From positions 62,001 through 126,000 of the forward strand of contig NZ_WTSX01000005.1 in NCBI RefSeq assembly GCF_009828745.1: a stretch of 64,000 nucleotides of DNA. The letters are read 5' to 3'. A program made the position numbers and the translations under genes. Shown here piece by piece: positions 27,684 to 52,073 of this stretch. Source of the stretch: Erysipelothrix anatis. GTDB taxonomy: Bacteria; Bacillota_I; Bacilli_A; Erysipelotrichales; Erysipelotrichaceae. The notes below the pieces were generated by a model. That model saw nothing but the letters and a program-made list of their open reading frames with translations, did not search any database and was not told where the DNA came from. The first letter of the stretch is position 1. Every line of letters begins with the position of its first letter.

Positions 27684-28610
27684 CTATTTTTGTGCAATTC
27701 GACGGTTTTTACCCGTCATTTCTAATGGGCTTGTTAACGCATGGATTCTATCCACTAGTCTTCGTGCTCTGATTTCATCTGAAACTCCTCTGGTATCCAG
27801 TTTATAGAGCCCTACCAAAAGTTCCGGACGGTAGTTACTTGTGATAATTGTCTTCCGTTTATTCTCAAGTCTATCATTGAGAATAGACAGTAATATTTCA
27901 TCACGACTCCACGACGTAATCGGCTCGGCACCGAGATCATCAAGTACAAGTACTTTAACGGACCTAAGTTTCCGTAAAATTCGATCCAACTCGTATGAGT
28001 TATTAAAATTTTGCTTTAACAGGCTAAGTAATGATGGGACATGAACAAATGCTACTGAATGGTTTTTCTTTGCAAATTCATTCGTTACAGCCGCACTTAT
28101 ATAGCTTTTTCCAATTCCTAAATCACCAAAAATAAAGTAACCTAGCGAATTGTCTTCAACGAATTTTACCAACGTACCCATCACAGATTTAAAATGAGCA
28201 CTTTCATTTTGATAGTCAATCTTATCGAAGTGTGCTTCACGTAAATTTAAGGGTAACGGCATCACTTGGTATTTATTCAAATATGAATATTCATTTTCAA
28301 TTTCATCGAGAATCGGAAGTTCTGTCACGAATTCATCAATGATTCCTGTATGCTTATCGTAAGCTAAATCTACAAAGCTGGCTAACTCCGGATTAGCAAC
28401 AACTTCATGTTTTGCATATGAGTGTGCTTTACGTTTTGATTGAACCCATCGTTTGAATTTGGATGCATTCTCGACGATAACCTGTTCAGGACAGTCATAC
28501 TTTTCAATAAATAATTGAATTTCAGGTAACTCAAGTAATTTCTTACCCAATTCATCACGTGCTTTAATCTGATCAGGTGTTAGTTCAAATGACATATTTC
28601 TAAAACTCAT
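27684..28610 (-). CDS. dnaI: Primosomal helicase loader DnaI
   Basis: A 308-residue AAA+ ATPase that loads the replicative helicase onto DNA. Walker A is GDLGIGKSYISAAV near residue 160 and Walker B VLVLDDLGAEPITSW. The N-terminal 100 residues form the helicase-binding region, though I do not see an obvious CxC...C zinc knuckle (only one Cys in YDCPEQV). Its start overlaps the end of dnaB by four bases and has GGAGG upstream. The dnaB-dnaI pair is the standard Firmicutes arrangement. Confidence 0.93.
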   Translation of the reverse strand: MSFRNMSFELTPDQIKARDELGKKLLELPEIQLFIEKYDCPEQVIVENASKFKRWVQSKRKAHSYAKHEVVANPELASFVDLAYDKHTGIIDEFVTELPILDEIENEYSYLNKYQVMPLPLNLREAHFDKIDYQNESAHFKSVMGTLVKFVEDNSLGYFIFGDLGIGKSYISAAVTNEFAKKNHSVAFVHVPSLLSLLKQNFNNSYELDRILRKLRSVKVLVLDDLGAEPITSWSRDEILLSILNDRLENKRKTIITSNYRPELLVGLYKLDTRGVSDEIRARRLVDRIHALTSPLEMTGKNRRIAQK

Positions 28611-29764
28611 GATTGTCCTCCTTTAAGATATGCTTCGATAATTCTCGTGTTTTCATCATCCGACTCTTGGGTTACTTCAATTGCTTCTGTATAATCAGGA
28701 GATTGAATTTCTACACGAGCCTTAGGTTGACTTTGCACTTTAGTTATTGGTCTTGATACTTCATCTTGAGCTTGCTTAGCCGTTTCAATTCCTTTACGTT
28801 TCCACGTTGCCGCAATTTTTTCTACATAGTTTTTATTCAAGTTTTTATTATTATTGTCTAGGATGTATTCTATTAGAATATTAACAACCTCATCATTGAA
28901 TTTAAAGTTACTCTGTAGCGACTTAATAAGATTTTTATCTGCATCCACAACATAATCATTTTCTTGTTTATATGCAATAAAACTGATGGGATCAAGTTCA
29001 TAAGCATTTGAAACAGTATTAACATTTTGAATTCCATGGTCTCGATCAACAAGAACCTGAAACTTCCGTTTATCAAAAATCATTGTTTCAAAATTAGTTG
29101 CCGCTAGGAGCTTAGACTTCATGTCAGCATAGCTTATTTTATAGTTGCTTCCAAACTCTTCAACAACATCAATAACTTCCCGGGTTCTAAGCTGCATTGG
29201 AAAAATCATTGGATTTAAGGTCTTAAAGAAAGAACTTGCGTCAAAACGTCTTTTTCGTGATGTCTCGGCAACCGGCCTTGTAATGAATGCTGATTCAGAT
29301 TGTTCGTCCCAAGTGGACAATCTTGCAATATCAAACGGCGCAGTAATTTCTTCAGCTGTATCCGGGATTATCGGAACCTGAACATGTTCACATGCTTCGA
29401 TATACTTTTCGCGACCCATCACAATAGCATACAGACGACCAAATGTACTGTGTTCCATAAAATCAACGGGACGAAGCGGCTCTAGCAACTCCAAGGAAAG
29501 TGACTTATCAAGTTCAAATGTACGTATTAATCCAAAGCGCTCGAGCTCTTTCCGATTTGCTTCGAATTCGCGTACATCAACTTGAAGAATTCGTAGTAAT
29601 TCTCTTATTTCAACACTAGAATCTAATGTAGAAAATTCGTAAAGCGTCAAATAGAGCGATGCTGCGGGATACGAAAAAAGTGGTTGATAGTACACCAATA
29701 AACTATGCAATTGGTCGGGTGCAAGATCATATTTTTTGTTTACATGAATCACTACTTTCGCCAC
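28607..29764 (-). CDS. dnaB: Replication initiation and membrane attachment protein DnaB
   Basis: A 385-residue DnaB of the Bacillus type, not the E. coli helicase. It helps DnaD and DnaI load helicase at the origin and at restarted forks. The N terminus (LAPDQLHSLLVYYQPLFSYPAASLYLTLYEF) matches the family and the region around 270-345 resembles a DnaD-like helical domain (EYILDNNNKNLNKNYVEKIAATWKRKGI). It is shorter than the Bacillus protein (about 470). The start abuts coaE. Confidence 0.9.
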   Translation of the reverse strand: MAKVVIHVNKKYDLAPDQLHSLLVYYQPLFSYPAASLYLTLYEFSTLDSSVEIRELLRILQVDVREFEANRKELERFGLIRTFELDKSLSLELLEPLRPVDFMEHSTFGRLYAIVMGREKYIEACEHVQVPIIPDTAEEITAPFDIARLSTWDEQSESAFITRPVAETSRKRRFDASSFFKTLNPMIFPMQLRTREVIDVVEEFGSNYKISYADMKSKLLAATNFETMIFDKRKFQVLVDRDHGIQNVNTVSNAYELDPISFIAYKQENDYVVDADKNLIKSLQSNFKFNDEVVNILIEYILDNNNKNLNKNYVEKIAATWKRKGIETAKQAQDEVSRPITKVQSQPKARVEIQSPDYTEAIEVTQESDDENTRIIEAYLKGGQS

Positions 29765-33691: not shown

Positions 33692-33740
33692 AAAGAAAGG
33701 AAACCCTTAGGTTTATCGACTTATCGATTTAAGGGTTTCC
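33692..33740 (-). terminator. Hairpin at the end of the ZnuA-like gene, before polA
   Basis: An 11-bp perfect inverted repeat (33699-33709 with 33730-33740, arm GGAAACCCTTA) with a 20-nt loop and TTTCTTT after it on the minus strand. The 5' arm is made of the last codons of the lipoprotein gene. It would end most transcription ahead of polA. Confidence 0.6.
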
Positions 33741-34678
33741 AAGTTTTGATACATGATTCGAATGTAATCATACTGTTCCGCAACATCCTTTTCAGATAAT
33801 GAATAAACATTGCTTAATTGTATCTCAGTTAGCGATAGTTCTGTTTTTAACTGATTGTATAGTGCTGTTTGTTCTTCCGTCATACCTTCTTCAAAGGCAA
33901 TATGTTTTACATTATTTGTTTGAATAGATGTACGAATATCGTTGAGCATCGCTTCCGTTGGAAGAGCACCGAACTTAGAAATGGTTACCGGATATACTTC
34001 GACCCCAAAACTCTTTTGCCAGTTTCCAAATGTCGGCGTCATCGTGACAATTTTAATGGGAACTGCTGGTGTTTTGATTTGTTGGAAATCGGCTTGCAAA
34101 CTCGTTAATTCAATTTCTAGTTTAGAAAATCTATCTTCAAATTTTGCAGCATCATCAGGATATGTCGCAACTAACCAATCTTTAATGGTTCGAGCCATCG
34201 AAGTCATCGCTAGCGGATCCATCCAAATGAACGGATCTTTATCATAAACATCTACCCGCTCAAAGTTTGGAGTATCATAATACGGTGATTCGACTACGTG
34301 TGTCGAATTCGCAGCTGTTACTGTTGTAAAGCGAGCAAAGTTGTAAAGTGATGAGCGTTCCGCCATATCTATAACTTCAATCTTATTGTTAGAGATGATA
34401 TCATCACGATAAATTTCCCAGTAAGGTTGAATTTCATTGATATAAAACATCGTATCCGCTTTTTCGAGAACTTCTTTGTAATCATCTCTAATTTGAGCAG
34501 TTTGAGGCGTTGACCCAACATCAAGTCGTTCGACATTTACGCGGTCTCCTGCCAATGTTGTTACGAGGTATTCTAAAGGATAACTTGTAACTACTACATT
34601 CTTATTTTTTGGAACGCAGCCCGTCAACATCAGTGTAAACATTACTACAACCAATGTACTTTTAATTAATCTTTTCAT
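33713..34678 (-). CDS. ZnuA-like metal-binding lipoprotein with lost ligands
   Basis: A 321-residue lipoprotein (lipobox LTGC, Cys21) of the cluster A-I binding proteins that normally deliver zinc or manganese to ABC importers. Fold landmarks are VVVTSYPLEYLVTTLAGDRVNV, ADTMFYIN, PFIWMDPLAMTSMARTI and TPTFGNWQKSFGVEVYPV. The usual histidines are absent: PHxxEP is replaced by STPQTAQIRDDY, DPHxWLDP by DPFIWMDP, and HxxFxYF by TPTFGNW. No ABC ATPase or permease is adjacent. The protein may bind something else or act without metal. Confidence 0.8.
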   Translation of the reverse strand: MKRLIKSTLVVVMFTLMLTGCVPKNKNVVVTSYPLEYLVTTLAGDRVNVERLDVGSTPQTAQIRDDYKEVLEKADTMFYINEIQPYWEIYRDDIISNNKIEVIDMAERSSLYNFARFTTVTAANSTHVVESPYYDTPNFERVDVYDKDPFIWMDPLAMTSMARTIKDWLVATYPDDAAKFEDRFSKLEIELTSLQADFQQIKTPAVPIKIVTMTPTFGNWQKSFGVEVYPVTISKFGALPTEAMLNDIRTSIQTNNVKHIAFEEGMTEEQTALYNQLKTELSLTEIQLSNVYSLSEKDVAEQYDYIRIMYQNLETLKSISR

Positions 34679-43410: not shown

Positions 43411-44001
43411 TTATTGATTTGCTTGTATTATAAGTGCAGGCCCACCTTGAAGCGTCACAACCCCTATATCATCTAGAATCTCATTTGATGTTAGATAAGT
43501 ATCACCAAATTTAACATCACGTTGATTAAGCGGATATTTGAATCCTTCAAGTGTAATCGTAATCGGCTCAAAAACAAGCACAGATAAATAGTAATAATCA
43601 TTTTTAGCGATATGGTGAGTACCCTCATCATATCTTTTTATTTTGTTTTGACCATCGTACAAGGTGATCCGCGAATCAAGCATTGCTGTTATCACATTGC
43701 TGTATTCGTGATCACGGCGTCGACCCAATCCCCCATAGACTATAATTTCATCATAATCCCCTGCTTGTTTGTACGCGAACAGAAAATCAGTATCATCTTT
43801 CATTGGGTTGAGTCGGATTGTTGTTTCGGCATAGTTTTTAATTCGCTGGAAATCATCTTCACTAACAGAATCAAAATCTCCACATGCCAACATAACAGGA
43901 ATGCCCTTGTTTAAACAAACAAGGGCTCCATAGTCAACACCGATAACATCACCTTCAACGGTTCCTTCAAAGTCCCCTAGAACGAGTGTGACGGTTCTCA
44001 T
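43411..44001 (-). CDS. thiN: Thiamine pyrophosphokinase
   Basis: A 196-residue enzyme that makes thiamine diphosphate from thiamine and ATP, allowing use of imported thiamine. VDYGALVCLNKGIPVMLACGDFDSV (conserved aspartates) and KDDTDFLFAYK followed by YGGLGRRRDHEYSN are the family motifs. It is the last gene of the cluster and overlaps rpe by four bases. Its lower similarity in the C-terminal third is usual. Confidence 0.92.
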   Translation of the reverse strand: MRTVTLVLGDFEGTVEGDVIGVDYGALVCLNKGIPVMLACGDFDSVSEDDFQRIKNYAETTIRLNPMKDDTDFLFAYKQAGDYDEIIVYGGLGRRRDHEYSNVITAMLDSRITLYDGQNKIKRYDEGTHHIAKNDYYYLSVLVFEPITITLEGFKYPLNQRDVKFGDTYLTSNEILDDIGVVTLQGGPALIIQANQ

Positions 44002-44645
44002 AATAAAGAAATAACTGCCTTTTCAATATCATCACTGAAAACATAACTTCCAGCAACTAAAATATCTGCGCCTGCTGAACGTGCACGAATACCAGTTTCG
44101 TCATTAATGCCACCGTCAACAGAAATGAGATACTCGTAGTTATTTGATTGTCTGAACGCGTCAACTTCTTTGATACGCTCCAACATTTCAGGCATGAATG
44201 CTTGGCCTCCAAACCCTGGTTCAACACTCATGACAAGAACAATATCTACATGTTTAAGATATGGAACAATAAGCGAAATATCTGTGCCTGGCTTTAATGT
44301 GATTCCAGCTTTTACACCACGTTTTTTTAAATCCTTAACAGCGGCAATTCCATCCATGACATCATCAAAACATTCAGCATGAATCGTGATGGCATCAGCA
44401 CCTGCATCGATAAATGCATCAAAATACTGAACAGGGTCACTGATCATCAAATGGACATCCATCAATAAATCCGATACATGATCAACTTGTTTGAGAATGC
44501 CAGGACCAAAACTAATATTTGGCACAAAGTGACCATCCATAACATCAAAGTGTAACCACTTAGCCCCCGCTACTTCAACACGTTTAAGCTGTGTCTTCAT
44601 TTCTGAAAAATCTAAAGATAATACTGATGGCGATACTATTTTCAT
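43998..44645 (-). CDS. rpe: Ribulose-phosphate 3-epimerase
   Basis: A 215-residue TIM-barrel enzyme of the pentose phosphate pathway interconverting ribulose 5-phosphate and xylulose 5-phosphate. PSVLSLDFSEM, WLHFDVMDGHFVPNISFGP, DVHLMISDP, VMSVEPGFGGQAFMPE and SVDGGINDETG carry the metal and catalytic residues. It overlaps rsgA and thiN by four bases on each side. Confidence 0.97.
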   Translation of the reverse strand: MKIVSPSVLSLDFSEMKTQLKRVEVAGAKWLHFDVMDGHFVPNISFGPGILKQVDHVSDLLMDVHLMISDPVQYFDAFIDAGADAITIHAECFDDVMDGIAAVKDLKKRGVKAGITLKPGTDISLIVPYLKHVDIVLVMSVEPGFGGQAFMPEMLERIKEVDAFRQSNNYEYLISVDGGINDETGIRARSAGADILVAGSYVFSDDIEKAVISLL

Positions 44646-45499
44646 CCCCGTGTGTCCTCCTTGATTAGTTTTACTACATCCACATAATTTGTGTATCGAA
44701 TTTTTGATACAGCATCATTTTCTACTGCTTCTTTGATTTTACAACCTGGTTCTTTTAAATGCAAACAATTACGATATTTGCATTGCCCAATGTAAGGCGC
44801 GAAATCTGGGATCGATTCAGCTAACATTTGAACATCAACTTGTGAAAAATCAAGTGATGAGAATCCTGGTGTATCAGCAATCCATCCTCCAGCAATTTCA
44901 TAAAGTTGGTTATGACGGGTTGTATGGCGTCCTCGACCGAGTGCTTTAGAAATCGCTTGCGTATTTAACTGTAATTCTCCATTAATGCGATTTAAAATAC
45001 TTGATTTTCCAACACCACTTTGGCCTGCAAGCACCGATAGTTTATCTTTTAGGATATTCTCTAAAGGGTCCGTTGGTAAATTTTGGCCCGTAAGAACCAC
45101 TTGATAACCACGCGTTTGGTATTCTTGAATGATTTCATTTTGCGCCTCTTTTGTAATCAAATCAGCTTTAGATATGACAATGACGGATTTAATACCTTCA
45201 AGTGAAATCAAAAATATAAGGCGATCTACAAGTGTGTATGAAAAATCTGGTTCTTTCGCCGACATTACGATTAAGGTTTGATCTATGTTAGCAACCAGTG
45301 GGCGTATGAGATGATTCTCCCGTTCAAGAACTTCCTGAATCACCCATTGTTCCTCAAGAAACTCGACATGAACATTGTCCCCTACAATGGGTTTTTGTCC
45401 CAGTCGAAGCTTTCCCATTGCCTTCGCAACATGAAATTCGCCGTCCATATAAATCGTGTAATGATTCGAAACGATTCGCGTAATTCTTGCTTTTTTCAT
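44642..45499 (-). CDS. rsgA: Ribosome small subunit GTPase RsgA
   Basis: A 285-residue circularly permuted GTPase that assists late 30S maturation. An OB domain (1-65) is followed by the permuted GTPase with G4 ISKADL, then G1 GQSGVGKSSILNRI and G3 DTPGFS, and a C-terminal zinc knuckle (GQCKYRNCLHLKEPGCKI). The order prkC-rsgA-rpe-thiN is conserved in Firmicutes. The gap from prkC is 66 bp with no obvious terminator. Confidence 0.96.
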   Translation of the reverse strand: MKKARITRIVSNHYTIYMDGEFHVAKAMGKLRLGQKPIVGDNVHVEFLEEQWVIQEVLERENHLIRPLVANIDQTLIVMSAKEPDFSYTLVDRLIFLISLEGIKSVIVISKADLITKEAQNEIIQEYQTRGYQVVLTGQNLPTDPLENILKDKLSVLAGQSGVGKSSILNRINGELQLNTQAISKALGRGRHTTRHNQLYEIAGGWIADTPGFSSLDFSQVDVQMLAESIPDFAPYIGQCKYRNCLHLKEPGCKIKEAVENDAVSKIRYTNYVDVVKLIKEDTRG

Positions 45500-45565
45500 A
45501 CTTTACCTCATACCTCTATTTTAGCAATTTTCTCAGTGCGTGCAGTTTTATGCACTTAGTTTACA

Positions 45566-47338
45566 TTACTCCGATCCTGGTTTGTTTGATCCTGAATTTC
45601 CAGATTCAGGTTTTCCATTATCAGGGTTGCCGGTATCTGGTTTTTCTGGTTCCGGTTTTGTTTCAGGCTCCGGATTGGTCATCTTTTCATAATAATAAAG
45701 CGTTACAGAACTTCCCTCATCTTGAACATAATAGCTTCCTGCTAATGGATTAGTACGTTTGACAACATTGTACTCAAGTTCTTTAATTTCAGCGAGGCTA
45801 AGCCCTGCCTGTGGCAATAATTCTGTTCGCGTTACGATCCCCAACGCTTCAAGTTCTTGTTTGGCTGCCGCAACTGATTTACCTGTAACATCTGGAATTA
45901 AAAGTTGCATCTTTGAACTTACTGTCAGCGTCAATTCACGTCGTTGGTTCGGGACAATTTTATCACCTGGATTTAACCCTGATTGACTAATTACAATTCC
46001 TGGAGCCATATCTTTTCGCGGCTCAGTTACTGTCTTAATTTCAACATTAACATCTTTAAGCGCTTGTGTCACGGCTTCCACCGTCATACCCGTATAATCT
46101 CCTACTTCGAACATCTTTCCATGGGATACCGTTAATTTAATCTGGTCTCCTTTAGCAACAGTTGCTCCTTCACCAGGCTTTGTTGCCATAACAATGCCGG
46201 ATTCGTATTCGTCTGAGTAACTGTAACTCACAGAAGCATTTACATTTAATCCTAATTGTTCAAGTGCTACTTTCGCTTCTTCAACTGTCATACCGGTAAC
46301 TTTCGGAACTTGAATATCAACTTTAGGTTTTGGTCTGAATAGAAACCATGCAAAGAGTCCCACCACAACAACAGCGGCAACACTTCCCCCAATTATCATC
46401 ATTTTTTTACGTTTTTTCTTTTTGGCCTCGAGTTCAGCTTCTTCTTCAGTTAATGTTCCGAGTACACGTGTCCCTTGGTCATCTTCAGGTGTTTCAAACT
46501 CCCACAAGGGTTCATCGGCACGAGAAGGGTCCAAAATATCTGACAAATCCTCGATAAATTCATCGATATTACGGTAACGGTAGTTTCGATTTTTGACTGT
46601 TGCTTTAGCAATAACATTTACGATTGAATTGGGCAAACTCGGATTGAATTTTTGAACCGAGGGAAACGGGTCACGCATATGTTTCATCGCAATTTCGACA
46701 GGATTTTCCCCACGATACGGAATTTCACCCGTTAAGAGTTCATAAAATACGACGCCCAGTGCATAGATATCTGATTGCTTCGTTGCACCTTCTCCACGCG
46801 AAAGTTCTGGAGCCATATAATGGACCGACCCTAATACCGAATCATGACGTGTTAATTGGATTGCGTCGCCTGCAAGGGCGATACCAAAGTCAGTTAGTTT
46901 TACAGTTCCATCATCTTTGATGAGCACATTTTGTGGTTTGATGTCACGGTGAATTACTTGATTCGCATGTGCAACTTGTAGTGCTTGTGCAAGCTGTTTG
47001 ATAATCGCAACAGCTTCAAACTTATCCAAAGCGCCACGTCGATGAATCAACTCTTTTAATGTTGTACCTCTCACCACTTCCATTACAATATAGTGTTGCC
47101 CATTGTCTTCACCGACATCGTAGACTTCTACAATTCCTTGATGACTAAGGCGACTCGCAGCAGTTGCTTCACGCTGAAAACGAAGCAGTGATACTGGGTC
47201 TGTAGACATTTCGCCACGCAGCCGCTTTAATGCAACCTCACGGTCTAAAACTGTGTCTTTCGCAAGAAAAACATCGGCCATTCCGCCATTTCCGATTCTA
47301 CGAATGAGTATGTATCGATTCCCTATGATTTCCGTCAT
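45566..47338 (-). CDS. prkC: Serine/threonine kinase with PASTA domains
   Basis: A 590-residue membrane kinase that senses muropeptides or lipid II. The kinase domain (about 9-270) has the glycine-rich loop RIGNGGMADVFLAKD, lysine in VALKRLR, HRDIKPQNVLI and DFGIAL. A membrane helix lies at about 315-336, followed by three PASTA repeats (starting near IQVPKVTG, FEVGDYTG and LLIPDVTG). The C-terminal tail is repetitive, rich in Pro, Glu, Asn and Gly. It overlaps the phosphatase gene by four bases, so the pair is co-made. Confidence 0.96.
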   Translation of the reverse strand: MTEIIGNRYILIRRIGNGGMADVFLAKDTVLDREVALKRLRGEMSTDPVSLLRFQREATAASRLSHQGIVEVYDVGEDNGQHYIVMEVVRGTTLKELIHRRGALDKFEAVAIIKQLAQALQVAHANQVIHRDIKPQNVLIKDDGTVKLTDFGIALAGDAIQLTRHDSVLGSVHYMAPELSRGEGATKQSDIYALGVVFYELLTGEIPYRGENPVEIAMKHMRDPFPSVQKFNPSLPNSIVNVIAKATVKNRNYRYRNIDEFIEDLSDILDPSRADEPLWEFETPEDDQGTRVLGTLTEEEAELEAKKKKRKKMMIIGGSVAAVVVVGLFAWFLFRPKPKVDIQVPKVTGMTVEEAKVALEQLGLNVNASVSYSYSDEYESGIVMATKPGEGATVAKGDQIKLTVSHGKMFEVGDYTGMTVEAVTQALKDVNVEIKTVTEPRKDMAPGIVISQSGLNPGDKIVPNQRRELTLTVSSKMQLLIPDVTGKSVAAAKQELEALGIVTRTELLPQAGLSLAEIKELEYNVVKRTNPLAGSYYVQDEGSSVTLYYYEKMTNPEPETKPEPEKPDTGNPDNGKPESGNSGSNKPGSE

Positions 47339-48063
47339 TTTTTGTCACCCTCCAACAATATTATCGAGATGTTATCATAGCCCCCAGAACGGTACGCCAT
47401 TTCCATAAGTCGATGTCTTTTTTCTAGTATATTTCCTTCATTCATTATTTGTGTGATCATTGAGTACGGAACATAGCCGTGAAGACCATCACTGGATAAG
47501 AGAAGATAATCCCACCCTTTTTCAATGGTAATTGTTTCAAATGAGATTCTTTCATCGATTCCAACTGCATTCATGAGTACATTTCGTTTTGGATGTTTAT
47601 CAATTTCTTCTTTAGAGATTTGATTACGACGGTACATCTCGTACGCATACGTTTGATCTTCTGATAGTTGTGTTAAGTTTTGATTCTCAAAACGATAAAT
47701 GCGACTATCTCCAATATTAAAGGCAATTGCACCATCTGATAAAATAATGCAAGCAATCATAGTTGTACCCATCCCTTGGAATTCAGGGACCACTAACGAT
47801 TCATGATATACAGCTCTATTTACTTCAGTAATCGCTTTATTAAACCAGGTAGTTACCTCATCTAGCGTCGTAAAGTATTTATGGTCTACAAACGATTCCG
47901 CTAACATACGTGCGGCCATTTCACTTGCAACTGAGCCAGCATTAGCACCACCTATACCATCACATACCATCGCTAAAAGGGCATTATGATTTTCTACAAC
48001 TGCGACATTATCTTGGTTTTCTTTTCGTAATAATCCTATTTCGCTAATGCTTGTATATTTCAC
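47335..48063 (-). CDS. prpC: PP2C-type protein phosphatase
   Basis: A 242-residue metal-dependent phosphatase that reverses PrkC phosphorylation. RKENQDN near the start, VCDGIGGANAGSVAS, FNIGDSRIYRF, LLLSSDGLHGYV and GGYDNISIILL hold the metal aspartates. I prefer the GTG at 48063, seven bases behind GAGAGG; an ATG at 48078 in the same frame has a poorly placed site. Either choice leaves the catalytic core intact. Confidence 0.94.
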   Translation of the reverse strand: MKYTSISEIGLLRKENQDNVAVVENHNALLAMVCDGIGGANAGSVASEMAARMLAESFVDHKYFTTLDEVTTWFNKAITEVNRAVYHESLVVPEFQGMGTTMIACIILSDGAIAFNIGDSRIYRFENQNLTQLSEDQTYAYEMYRRNQISKEEIDKHPKRNVLMNAVGIDERISFETITIEKGWDYLLLSSDGLHGYVPYSMITQIMNEGNILEKRHRLMEMAYRSGGYDNISIILLEGDKK

Positions 48064-48093
48064 GGTTAGACCTCTCATTTCTTCTTGTCTATC

Positions 48094-49308
48094 TTAATAT
48101 TTACGTTGTAACTTGGCAATATAGAATCCATCACCCATGGTTTCCATCGGGTTCATGGTTTCATCGTGAAGCAACGTAAAGTTGTCATGATTCTCTAAAA
48201 ACTCTTTAATTTGTTTTTCATTCTCTTTTCGATTCAGTGTACAGGTTGAATACATCAAGATACCTGATTCTTTTACCATCGGTGCAATGTGACTGAGCAT
48301 GTCTTTTTGAAGAGTCACTAGCGTATCTAAATCTTGTGGATAAATATGATATCGTAAATCATGTTTGTGCGAAAGAACGCCCAATCCTGAGCATGGTGCA
48401 TCAATAAGAATACGATCGTATTGTTCCTTCGATTGATACTCAAGTACATCTTGCGTGTGAATTGTCGCAATTTGTACATTTGTTCGTTCCATCAATTGAC
48501 GTGTGGATGTTGCTCGCGATTCATATAATTCTACGCCATCAATAACACCATTATTTTCCATAAGTGCGGCAATTTGGGTTGTTTTTGTTCCTGGACCACA
48601 GCAGCAATCAAGAACGCGCATACCTGGCTCCAACGCCATCTGTTTCACAACCTCTTGAGAATTAACATCTTGAATTAAGAGGTATCCCTCATCAAGATAG
48701 TTTGTCTTAAATAATTCAGCTTTCGCAATCGTATGCCCCCCAAGTGTATCAAATACTGAAGGATCCAAAGTATCGGTTGGTTTTAGTGTATTTAAGCGAA
48801 CATATGCAGGCTTGATTTGTTGGCAGTAAATTGCGTAATCCAGTGCAAATGCTTCCGAGTATTGTTTGCTTAAAAGTTTTAAAATCCATAATGGCATGCT
48901 GTACTGAATTGATGCTACTTGAAGTGTATCGCCTTCAATAGGTCGTTCGCCTCGCTTCATAACATTTTTCAAAACAGCATTAACGACACCCGCATAGCGG
49001 AATTTTTTTATTTTCTTTGCTAGATCCACTGACTCATTTACGATGGCATAATCGGGTATTTTATCCATTTTGAAAAACTGTGCCAGTCCCATTTTAATTA
49101 TTAACTGAATCTCTTTCGGGAGTTTCTTATCAATTAAATCTTCGAATTGATAATCAAGATACAAACTATGTTGCAACGTTGTGTACACAAGTGCACTTAC
49201 AAACGCTTGATCTTCAGGTTTTAAATCTAATTCTTTTAACACAAGGTGAGCATGTCTATCTTTGAAGTAAACTTCAGATAGAACTTTGTAGGTTTCGGTT
49301 CTTCTCAT
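48094..49308 (-). CDS. rsmB: 16S rRNA cytosine-967 methyltransferase RsmB
   Basis: A 404-residue protein with an N-terminal NusB-like RNA-binding domain (1-130) and a SAM-dependent methyltransferase domain (LDCCCGPGTKTTQIAALMENNGVIDGVE). The catalytic cysteines are in DAPCSGLG and MYSTCTLN. It lies two bases after the priA stop; the def and fmt genes often found in between are absent. Length is slightly below the 430-450 norm. Confidence 0.94.
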   Translation of the reverse strand: MRRTETYKVLSEVYFKDRHAHLVLKELDLKPEDQAFVSALVYTTLQHSLYLDYQFEDLIDKKLPKEIQLIIKMGLAQFFKMDKIPDYAIVNESVDLAKKIKKFRYAGVVNAVLKNVMKRGERPIEGDTLQVASIQYSMPLWILKLLSKQYSEAFALDYAIYCQQIKPAYVRLNTLKPTDTLDPSVFDTLGGHTIAKAELFKTNYLDEGYLLIQDVNSQEVVKQMALEPGMRVLDCCCGPGTKTTQIAALMENNGVIDGVELYESRATSTRQLMERTNVQIATIHTQDVLEYQSKEQYDRILIDAPCSGLGVLSHKHDLRYHIYPQDLDTLVTLQKDMLSHIAPMVKESGILMYSTCTLNRKENEKQIKEFLENHDNFTLLHDETMNPMETMGDGFYIAKLQRKY

Positions 49309-49310
49309 CT

Positions 49311-51440
49311 TTATTCGAGCGTTAATGGATTAACATCAACACTCACTCCTGTTCTATTTATTTTCTTATACAACTCTAATGCTTGATGCGTTTTAGCGAT
49401 CATAACATCGAGATCTTTTCCTTTTAATATTATACGGCTTCTGTGCCTACGATTCAAACGTCGTAACATGACTGGACCGATTTGTTGAATTTGTGGGTCT
49501 TCGACAAACGGAACGAACCCGTTTGCAGCTGCGAATGCTTTGTCTGCATCTTCATCACTAAATATTATAGAAATAAGGTAGCGATACGGTGGATAATTTG
49601 CGATTTGACGGTAGTTCATTTCAAATTTGAAAAAGTGCTTATATTTTTGGTGAATCGCTGTTTGAATCGCGTAGTGATCTGGATTGGCCGTTTGAATCAT
49701 GACTTCCCCTGGATATTGGCCGCGCCCTGCACGCCCAGATGCTTGGAGTAGCATTTCAAATGAAAGCTCTACAGCACGGTAATCTGTGTGAGCCAATGCA
49801 GTATCGGCATTAATAATCCCTACTAATGTCACATTCTCAATATCGAGACCTTTCGCGATCATTTGGGTTCCAACAAGAATATCTGTTTCGTGATTCATGA
49901 AGGCATTTAGAATTTTTTCGTGAGCATTTTTTTGACGGGTAGAATCTGCATCCATACGACCAATTCGAGCCTGTGGAAACAATACTTGTAAATGCTCTTC
50001 CAAACGTTGTGTTCCAACGCCACTACCAACTATGTTTTGATTTCCCTTCGCGTTCGCATTGTGATGTGCTGCGTATCCACACACATGACATTTCAAACTT
50101 GCTTCATCTTTATGATAGTTTAATGAGACATCGCAATTCGGGCATTGAATTACCTCATTATTGACATCTTTAAGCAAGGTCATATACCCACGCCGATTCA
50201 GCAACAACATAACCTGTTGTTTTTTTTGTAGGCGATCATAGATTCCGTCGAGTAACGTCGGTGTCAGCAAATGAGATGCACGGTTTTTAAGTGCCTGACG
50301 CGTATCGATTACGGTTACTTTGGGAAAGGTCTGATTGACACGTTCTGGTAGTTCCAAAAGTGTATAGACTCCTTTTAGAGCTCTTGCATAAGTCTCTAAT
50401 GCTGGTGAAGCGCTCCCTAAGACCAAAGGACATTTATGATACTTGCTTCGGTGAATCGCAACATCACGAGTGTGGTAGAATGGTGTATTTTCTTGCTTAT
50501 AACTACTGTCATGTTCTTCATCCATTACGATTAATCCTAAATTTTGAAATGGCATAAAGGCCGCGGATCGTGTGCCAACGACAATATTGACCTCACCCCG
50601 TTTAACCCGCATGTACTGTTCATATTTTTCTTGGTCATTTAATGCAGAGTGATAAATCGCGACGTCTTCACCAAAGCGCGTAGAAACACGATCAATCATC
50701 TGTGGTGTTAGTGAAATTTCAGGAACTAGAATTAATACTTGCTGCCCCTGACTCACAACATCATGTGCCAACTGTAAGTATACCTCAGTTTTTCCACTAC
50801 CTGTTACACCATGTAACAAGTAAGTGTGTGCACTGTTAAAGTGTACCCGCTTCAGGATATCTGATTGCGCATCTGTTAATGCGTACTTTGCATCCTGCTG
50901 AACTATTGGCTTACTTTCGTAGATAACCTCTTGATCTTCGAGTGCAAGGATTCCCTTATCGATAAGACTACGGAAACCAGAGTACATTTTTTGTGCTTCT
51001 TTTACAGGTAATGTTGTATCCGTGCGAAATGCATCTAGAAATTGTTTTTGAGTCGGTGTCAGTCCTTGGATATTCCCATGCAATCGGCGAACTACCCGTT
51101 GTGTTTTAATACGCTTGGTATTCGATTTAGGTCGTAATTTATTGGGCAAAATTGTTTGAAGACAACGGATCATTGGAGCTATCGTTTGGTCTTTCATCCA
51201 TTCTGCCAATTCAAAAAGTTCTTTATTTATTACCGGTTCGTCATCCAAAACTTCTATAATTTCAGCAATCTCATAATCCATAGGAATTGGGGGATATACT
51301 TGATTCACGAAGCCAATAAGCTCACGGTTATTCATCAAAACCTTAACACGCATACCCGCTTTTACATCATGACTACCGCTTTGGTAAGTCAGTGTTTTGT
51401 TTCCTAAAAAACTATTTTCTATATAGACATCAAGATACAT
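49311..51440 (-). CDS. priA: Primosomal protein N' (PriA helicase) with one zinc site
   Basis: A 709-residue superfamily 2 helicase that restarts collapsed replication forks. Walker A GVTGSGKTEVYLQL, the DEEH box VMDEEHDSSYKQ, and FLVGTQMIAKGLD-like ILVGTQMIAKGLDIENVTLV are intact. Of the eight zinc cysteines only four remain (CPNC and CHVC, about residues 430-455); positions that usually read CRDCGYVPQ and TCPECAS read LKDVNNEVIQ and NANAKGN. So one whole site is lost. ATG 51440 is preferred, six bases after GGAGG. Confidence 0.95.
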   Translation of the reverse strand: MYLDVYIENSFLGNKTLTYQSGSHDVKAGMRVKVLMNNRELIGFVNQVYPPIPMDYEIAEIIEVLDDEPVINKELFELAEWMKDQTIAPMIRCLQTILPNKLRPKSNTKRIKTQRVVRRLHGNIQGLTPTQKQFLDAFRTDTTLPVKEAQKMYSGFRSLIDKGILALEDQEVIYESKPIVQQDAKYALTDAQSDILKRVHFNSAHTYLLHGVTGSGKTEVYLQLAHDVVSQGQQVLILVPEISLTPQMIDRVSTRFGEDVAIYHSALNDQEKYEQYMRVKRGEVNIVVGTRSAAFMPFQNLGLIVMDEEHDSSYKQENTPFYHTRDVAIHRSKYHKCPLVLGSASPALETYARALKGVYTLLELPERVNQTFPKVTVIDTRQALKNRASHLLTPTLLDGIYDRLQKKQQVMLLLNRRGYMTLLKDVNNEVIQCPNCDVSLNYHKDEASLKCHVCGYAAHHNANAKGNQNIVGSGVGTQRLEEHLQVLFPQARIGRMDADSTRQKNAHEKILNAFMNHETDILVGTQMIAKGLDIENVTLVGIINADTALAHTDYRAVELSFEMLLQASGRAGRGQYPGEVMIQTANPDHYAIQTAIHQKYKHFFKFEMNYRQIANYPPYRYLISIIFSDEDADKAFAAANGFVPFVEDPQIQQIGPVMLRRLNRRHRSRIILKGKDLDVMIAKTHQALELYKKINRTGVSVDVNPLTLE

Positions 51441-51463
51441 GCTCATCCTCCTATAAAGACTTA

Positions 51464-51486
51464 AAACAACTCCTAAAGAGTTGTTT
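51464..51486 (-). terminator. Hairpin between gmk and priA
   Basis: A 9-bp stem (AAACAACTC with GAGTTGTTT, 5-nt loop holding the gmk stop codon), followed only by TTAAG on the minus strand after the stem. Probably an attenuator or stability element rather than a full stop. Confidence 0.5.
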
Positions 51487-52045
51487 CAATGTTTCGCTTA
51501 ATAATTAGTGCAACAGAGTCTGCTGCGAGTTGTGGGTTCTCATTACAAATAACGTATCGGTAGTGGTTCATTAGTTCCATTTCTTTACGTGCCTTATCCA
51601 ATCGTTCTTGGATAACATCTTGTGACTCTGTTTGACGTCCTTCAATCCGTCGTTTTAACTCTTCCATACTTGGTGGTACTAAAAAGATACTCAAGGAATC
51701 TGGTACTTTATCAATAACTTGCCGTGCACCTTGTACTTCAATTTCTAAGAGTACATTTTTCCCAAGATCGCGTAAGCGGTCCACTTCCGCCATCAATGTA
51801 CCATAGTAATTGCCAACAAACTCTGCATATTCCAACATTTCATCATTTTCAATTGCTTCTTTAAAACGTTCTTGACTCACAAAATAGTAGTCTTTTCCGT
51901 CAATTTCACCATTTCGCGGTTTACGCGTCGTCATTGAAATTGAAAATGCAAGATTCAGTTCTTCCTTTTCAAAAAAAATCTTTCGTACAGTTCCTTTACC
52001 GACACCGCTTGGACCCGAAAGAATAATGAGTAATCCTCGTTTCAT
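51473..52045 (-). CDS. gmk: Guanylate kinase
   Basis: A 190-residue enzyme phosphorylating GMP to GDP. The P-loop LSGPSGVGKGTVRK, SMTTRKPRNGEIDGKDYYFVS, LEIEVQGARQV and the lid region RRIEGRQTES are typical. ATG 52045 is chosen because AAGAGG lies nine bases ahead; the ATG at 52054 adjoins that site. It opens the gmk-priA-rsmB-prpC-prkC-rsgA-rpe-thiN run. Confidence 0.95.
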   Translation of the reverse strand: MKRGLLIILSGPSGVGKGTVRKIFFEKEELNLAFSISMTTRKPRNGEIDGKDYYFVSQERFKEAIENDEMLEYAEFVGNYYGTLMAEVDRLRDLGKNVLLEIEVQGARQVIDKVPDSLSIFLVPPSMEELKRRIEGRQTESQDVIQERLDKARKEMELMNHYRYVICNENPQLAADSVALIIKRNIETTL

Positions 52046-52073
52046 AAACACCATCCTCTTAAATATTTTTATT

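Follow-up and report, generated by a model that had tools for sequence, protein, structure and literature searches.

The window analyzed here, a 64,000-nucleotide stretch of the Erysipelothrix anatis genome (2.19 Mb, 29 contigs, 3.33% contamination), carries the gene for the replication restart helicase PriA within the series gmk-priA-rsmB-stp-prkC-rsgA-rpe-thiN (43411-52054), an order that we take to be common in Bacillota, with no def or fmt behind priA. A gene for a ZnuA/AdcA-type metal-binding lipoprotein also lies in the window (33713-34678, minus strand). The priA gene and the parts of its Cys-rich region are:

49311..51446, minus strand: priA, replication restart helicase PriA (primosomal protein N'), an open reading frame of 711 amino acids
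50145..50183, minus strand: residues 422-434 (MTLLKDVNNEVIQ), a predicted metal-free turn in place of the first outer CxxC knuckle, from 11 Erysipelothrix sequences; sisters keep CxxC there
50076..50144, minus strand: residues 435-457, the inner zinc site CPNC...CHVCG, kept, with C435, C438, C453 and C456 present in 11/11 Erysipelothrix sequences
50028..50075, minus strand: residues 458-473, a predicted variable-length loop in place of the second outer CxxC knuckle, from the alignment and low pLDDT

The protein scores 566 bits against the TIGR00595 equivalog model (cut-off 230) and matches the Pfam families 3'BD, DEAD, Helicase_C, Zn_ribbon_PriA and PriA_C. Specifically, it matches the 3' DNA-binding domain (PF17764, 65.7 bits, cut-off 22.7), the PriA C-terminal domain (PF18074, 38.6 bits, cut-off 26.9) and, at residues 435-459, the PriA zinc ribbon (PF18319, 42.1 bits, cut-off 26), which places the Cys-rich region as an insertion in the second helicase lobe. 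The SF2 helicase motifs are intact (Walker A GSGKT, DEEH and motif VI GRAGRG), the solved PriA structures 8fak, 6dgd and 4nl4 are the top fold matches, and this is the single priA gene found in the genome, the remaining matches among its long open frames being weak (<40 bits). A canonical two-zinc PriA has eight cysteines in four CxxC pairs; the window protein has four only, those of the inner pairs. Judged by sequence, then, it is PriA, though not a two-zinc PriA, and we read it as an ordinary vertical orthologue whose Cys-rich region has turned into a predicted one-zinc domain.

This region spans residues 417-482 (window 50001-50198; NRRGYMTLLKDVNNEVIQCPNCDVSLNYHKDEASLKCHVCGYAAHHNANAKGNQNIVGSGVGTQRL), and its only cysteines, C435, C438, C453 and C456, align with the inner two pairs of E. 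coli PriA. We compared the two replaced segments across 11 Erysipelothrix sequences (L003 and L009 being left out as near-copies) and 12 hand-picked sister sequences. The first segment is constant in length to within one residue and contains an invariant lysine, K426 (11/11); the second differs in length among the 11 and has a D-G or N-G pair in 8/11 rows, which would fit a plain beta-turn. Identity in the first and second segments is 0.48 and 0.32 in Erysipelothrix vs 0.44 and 0.29 in the sisters, and the gap fractions are 0.03 and 0.11 vs 0.00 and 0.02, so that the length variation of the second segment looks like relaxation. No Cys, His, Asp or Glu column is kept in at least 8 of the 11 sequences in either segment, and a substitute ligand is therefore not apparent. 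In the AlphaFold2 model, block means of pLDDT over the Cys-rich region are 47-61, vs 64-83 in an eight-Cys control (L081), and fall below 50 at residues 464-475, with no such stretch in the matching region of the control. The order of the five predicted strands is identical in the two proteins, as read from this low-confidence model; because of that low confidence we left ligand geometry unread.

Compared with the E. coli and Klebsiella PriA of 8fak, 6dgd and 4nl4, the window protein shares the whole domain order, the best fold match and the aligned inner cysteines but lacks the outer four cysteines and the positions at which PriB docks. As described in the available excerpt of PMC10175261, the Cys-rich region of E. 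coli PriA rotates on fork binding and exposes the PriB-docking face, PriB docks through Asp438, Ser481, Thr482 and His483, and a beta-hairpin of the region is needed for unwinding. In our alignment Asp438 lies between C436 and C439 of the first outer pair and Ser481-His483 lie just after C479 of the second, and the PriB-docking face thus sits on the outer knuckles. The two-zinc PriA of Erysipelotrichaceae sisters, Bacillus, Listeria and Paenibacillus belong to the same family, with the same motifs and length, but keep all eight cysteines. Zinc-free copies of zinc ribosomal proteins are similar in that a zinc ribbon has been made metal-free, but those are second copies for zinc scarcity (PMC5912738, seen in excerpt), whereas here the sole priA found is the altered one.

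Distribution of the outer-pair loss

We searched 60 relatives for PriA, of which 12 are in Erysipelothrix and make 13 genomes of the genus with that of the window. Both outer pairs are missing and both inner pairs present in all 13, some of which are assembled as a single contig, and the same loss is found in the nearest named relative, Erysipelothrix aquatica (98% PriA identity), and in E. inopinata. Since it is shared by all these genomes and the named species, the loss is not due to chance or sequencing error. One searched genome (G026) yielded only a PriA fragment and another (G028) none; in G028 and G283, nearly complete genomes of the same family, a first look found no PriA candidates, related helicases included.

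Among 192 distinct PriA rows from the phylum and two Lachnospiraceae, 170 have all four ligand pairs; the outer pairs are missing from 14 and the inner pairs from eight. In this count the last pair was allowed as C-x(0-2)-C/H, so that rows L187 and L188 score as eight-ligand. The 14 rows are Erysipelothrix only, namely the 13 genomes and a second, shorter fetch of the window gene (L001). Eight cysteines are also present in all of 15 named PriA, eight from other Bacillota, taken from the 72 plasmid-collection records with PriA. By these counts the outer-site loss is rare among relatives, and the Erysipelothrix PriA is a real, genus-wide and rare variant of a known protein. In a literature search run mostly without subscription papers we recognised no account of PriA zinc-site loss.

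The preliminary description had stated that only CPNC and CHVC remain, with the flanking CxxC pairs replaced, and the four cysteines of the 13/13 genomes bear this out; its further statement that exactly one (presumed) zinc site has gone and the other is whole also agrees with the sequences, which have lost both outer pairs and kept the inner four. It had named two findings that would count against it, namely other side chains completing site 1 and a loss common in Firmicutes PriA; instead, the two replaced segments of the 11 aligned sequences contain no conserved Cys/His/Asp/Glu column, and the 170 of 192 rows and eight named PriA of other Bacillota keep all pairs.

The sister genera g9 and g10 keep eight PriA cysteines and are 48-49% identical to the window PriA. 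In a PriA tree built by a quick method from 55 picked rows, with the Cys-rich region removed, Erysipelothrix forms one clade (SH-aLRT 93) that is sister to g9 and g10 together (99), and two zinc-state changes are required in all. The tree fits one event of outer-pair loss on the Erysipelothrix stem, after the split from g9 and g10.

Mirror-image PriA and probable loss of the motor

All eight rows without inner pairs come from one genus, g88 of family f11. Its PriA keeps the outer pairs (e.g. CRTC and CPVC), has lost both inner pairs and is without recognisable Walker A and DEEH motifs, each in 8/8 genomes. It is like the Erysipelothrix PriA in having a one-site Cys-rich region fixed over a genus, but unlike it in which pairs are kept and in the absence of the ATPase motifs. 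In four sister genera of g88 in f11 (L148, L157, L163 and L171), both the ATPase motifs and the eight cysteines are kept. From their sequences, rows L110, L111, L113 and L139-L146 (g88, f11) are probably motor-dead PriA, a state fixed in the genus.

A further 18 of the 192 rows have no recognisable Walker A motif yet keep all four ligand pairs, and the inner site is therefore not simply tied to ATPase activity. As far as these motifs tell, inner-site loss accompanied motor loss once, and motor loss does not force inner-site loss. Rows L103, L105-L109, L112, L114-L118, L180, L183 and L185, from f6, f17 and part of f11, combine four zinc pairs with no recognisable Walker A and point to repeated loss of the PriA motor. 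In E. coli PriA the outer four cysteines and the inner four form two separate zinc sites, and the natural patterns, in which the outer four or the inner four are lost together, agree with this arrangement.

The helicase-loading pathway and other zinc proteins

Two genes for later steps of restart are also present in the window:

27684..28610, minus strand: dnaI-like helicase loader gene, without the N-terminal zinc motif (CxxC...C...C), from profile matches and genus comparison
28607..29458, minus strand: dnaB-type primosomal gene (DnaB in the Bacillus sense, as opposed to the helicase of E. coli), Pfam DnaB_2 53 bits, overlapping dnaI

The dnaI-like gene comes after the dnaB-type gene, whose start codon is uncertain (its open frame is longer than the interval given), and lies 21 kb from priA. 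Its product has the curated NCBIfam DnaI model NF006505 as best match, at 169 bits against a model cut-off of 228, and has no Pfam DnaI_N match; we name it a DnaI-like loader because the N-terminal zinc motif is absent. Pfam DnaI_N was dropped as a test of presence, as it misses DnaI proteins that bear the motif (G014). In B. subtilis, restart proceeds through PriA-DnaD-DnaB and then DnaI (PMC13220808, in excerpt), and the N-terminal domain of DnaI is the helicase-binding part and contains a zinc fold (excerpts of PMC13326638 and PMC3791466).

The DnaI zinc motif is absent from 13/13 Erysipelothrix genomes and is present in 28/31 other genomes of the family and in 8/8 of family f2, with the matched DnaI of G265 left out of this reading. 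It is also absent from 9/9 f11 genomes, including g88, and from g9, g10, g41 and G086, all four with eight PriA cysteines. Across the Erysipelothrix, g9, g10, g41 and f11 genomes read, this amounts to several separate losses. Because g9 and g10 lack the motif too, its loss from DnaI preceded or coincided with that of the outer site in PriA. We had considered DnaI zinc loss as a mark special to lineages with changed PriA, but this idea is weakened by four other f11 genera, which were read as lacking the motif while keeping eight PriA cysteines; a test of association between the two losses is powerless, since the PriA losses number two. The loss of the motif also suggests that the helicase-loading chain has changed. 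DnaB- and DnaD-type genes are both present in Erysipelothrix, DnaB_2 genes being found in 13/13 genomes with two matches apiece and in 35/35 of the genomes searched, and on this ground we rejected the idea that a missing DnaD or DnaB had brought about the PriA change.

The other zinc proteins that we read have kept their sites. DnaG keeps its zinc motif in 6/6 Erysipelothrix genomes and TopA its two ribbons in 6/6; DnaX keeps its four-Cys site in 5/5, six genomes having been examined, of which G011 had no DnaX match over the cut-off; and DnaJ and Fpg keep their zinc motifs in the window. The change is therefore not a general shedding of zinc.

Explanations for the one-site PriA

The explanation that we favor, and to which we give as much credence as doubt, is that the outer knuckles, putatively a docking face as their E. 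coli counterparts are for PriB, were released within a DnaD-DnaB-DnaI restart pathway, while the inner site and the helicase were kept. The inner site would go on holding the wedge part of the Cys-rich region, so that unwinding works, and the two would remain under selection together with the motor. The outer knuckles would serve other work in the DnaD/DnaB/DnaI hand-over and could thus be dropped or remodelled: a rigid, zinc-held outer face would no longer be needed, either because the partner contact had moved or because it had never relied on that face. According to the excerpt of PMC13220808, broad conservation of PriB is confined to the gamma-proteobacteria. It counts against release that the outer site is kept by most other PriA of the phylum, which work with an identical set of DnaD, DnaB and DnaI, and a presumed lack of PriB alone therefore does not explain the loss. 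We also know of no partner contact of the PriA Cys-rich region in Bacillota, a second point against release; the 18 rows with four ligand pairs but no recognisable Walker A and the poor AlphaFold2 model of the region likewise weigh against the favored explanation. Adaptive and neutral versions of outer-knuckle release fit the evidence in hand alike.

Neutral decay, a serious candidate that we put somewhat short of an even chance, would treat the outer site as no more than a structural staple that lost one ligand by drift along the stem of the genus and then the remaining three, with no change of partner. It predicts the clean loss of one complete site, and it accords with a single loss in a single genus and with the variable length of the second segment (gap fraction 0.11 vs 0.02 in sisters). 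The preliminary description had argued that so clean a loss speaks for adaptation over random decay, but a zinc site is dead once one ligand is lost and the rest are then unconstrained, so that decay too would remove all four and the argument fails. What speaks against decay is that K426 is invariant and that, once scaled to PriA as a whole (identity 0.57 in Erysipelothrix vs 0.48 in sisters), the segments show no clear excess of substitutions over those of the sisters.

A bolder form of outer-knuckle release, which we offer tentatively and regard as unlikely, is that the PriA zinc sites are separate modules that can be deleted singly, the outer docking the loading partners and the inner serving the wedge. 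The Erysipelothrix PriA would then unwind without a platform, the g88 PriA would be a platform without an engine, and in Erysipelothrix the whole hand-over from PriA to DnaI would have been rewired, at the cost of zinc in the first protein as well as the last.

It is improbable that zinc sites were shed because zinc was scarce or because host nitric oxide or oxidants attack zinc thiolates. NO modifies PriA, DnaG and TopA of Salmonella by S-nitrosylation (excerpt of PMC6094482), zinc-independent protein copies are a known response to scarcity (PMC5912738, likewise in excerpt), the DnaI motif is gone as well and the ZnuA/AdcA-type uptake gene is within the window; however, the inner PriA site is retained, and we rejected general zinc saving in view of the motifs kept in DnaG, DnaX, TopA, DnaJ and Fpg. 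That site 1 is still assembled from other side chains is very improbable: His461, His462 and Asp427 are near the lost positions in the window PriA, but no such column reaches 8/11 in the replaced segments. An artefact of assembly or contamination, for which the 29 contigs and 3.33% contamination might be cited, is refuted, with negligible residual probability, by the shared state of the 13 genomes and two named species.

The roles of the PriA zinc sites are known mainly from E. coli cysteine mutants, in which an effect on folding is hard to tell from one on function. The two natural PriA, each fixed in a genus and each without one site, are ready-made tools for drawing this distinction, and the mirror-image g88 protein raises the usefulness of the Erysipelothrix variant. 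The joint DnaI loss directs attention to the loading step, whose contacts are poorly mapped in Bacillota. Even if only decay was at work, the variant would show that a bacterium can retain the helicase and do without half of the PriA zinc domain.

Two further priA genes are of note. The Erysipelothrix priA of G006 (contig C1, 986165-988299) matches as two pieces in different frames, split where the N-terminal part gives way to the helicase, and in the Acaryochloris marina plasmid pREC1 (L330) an ISL3-type element interrupts the plasmid priA.
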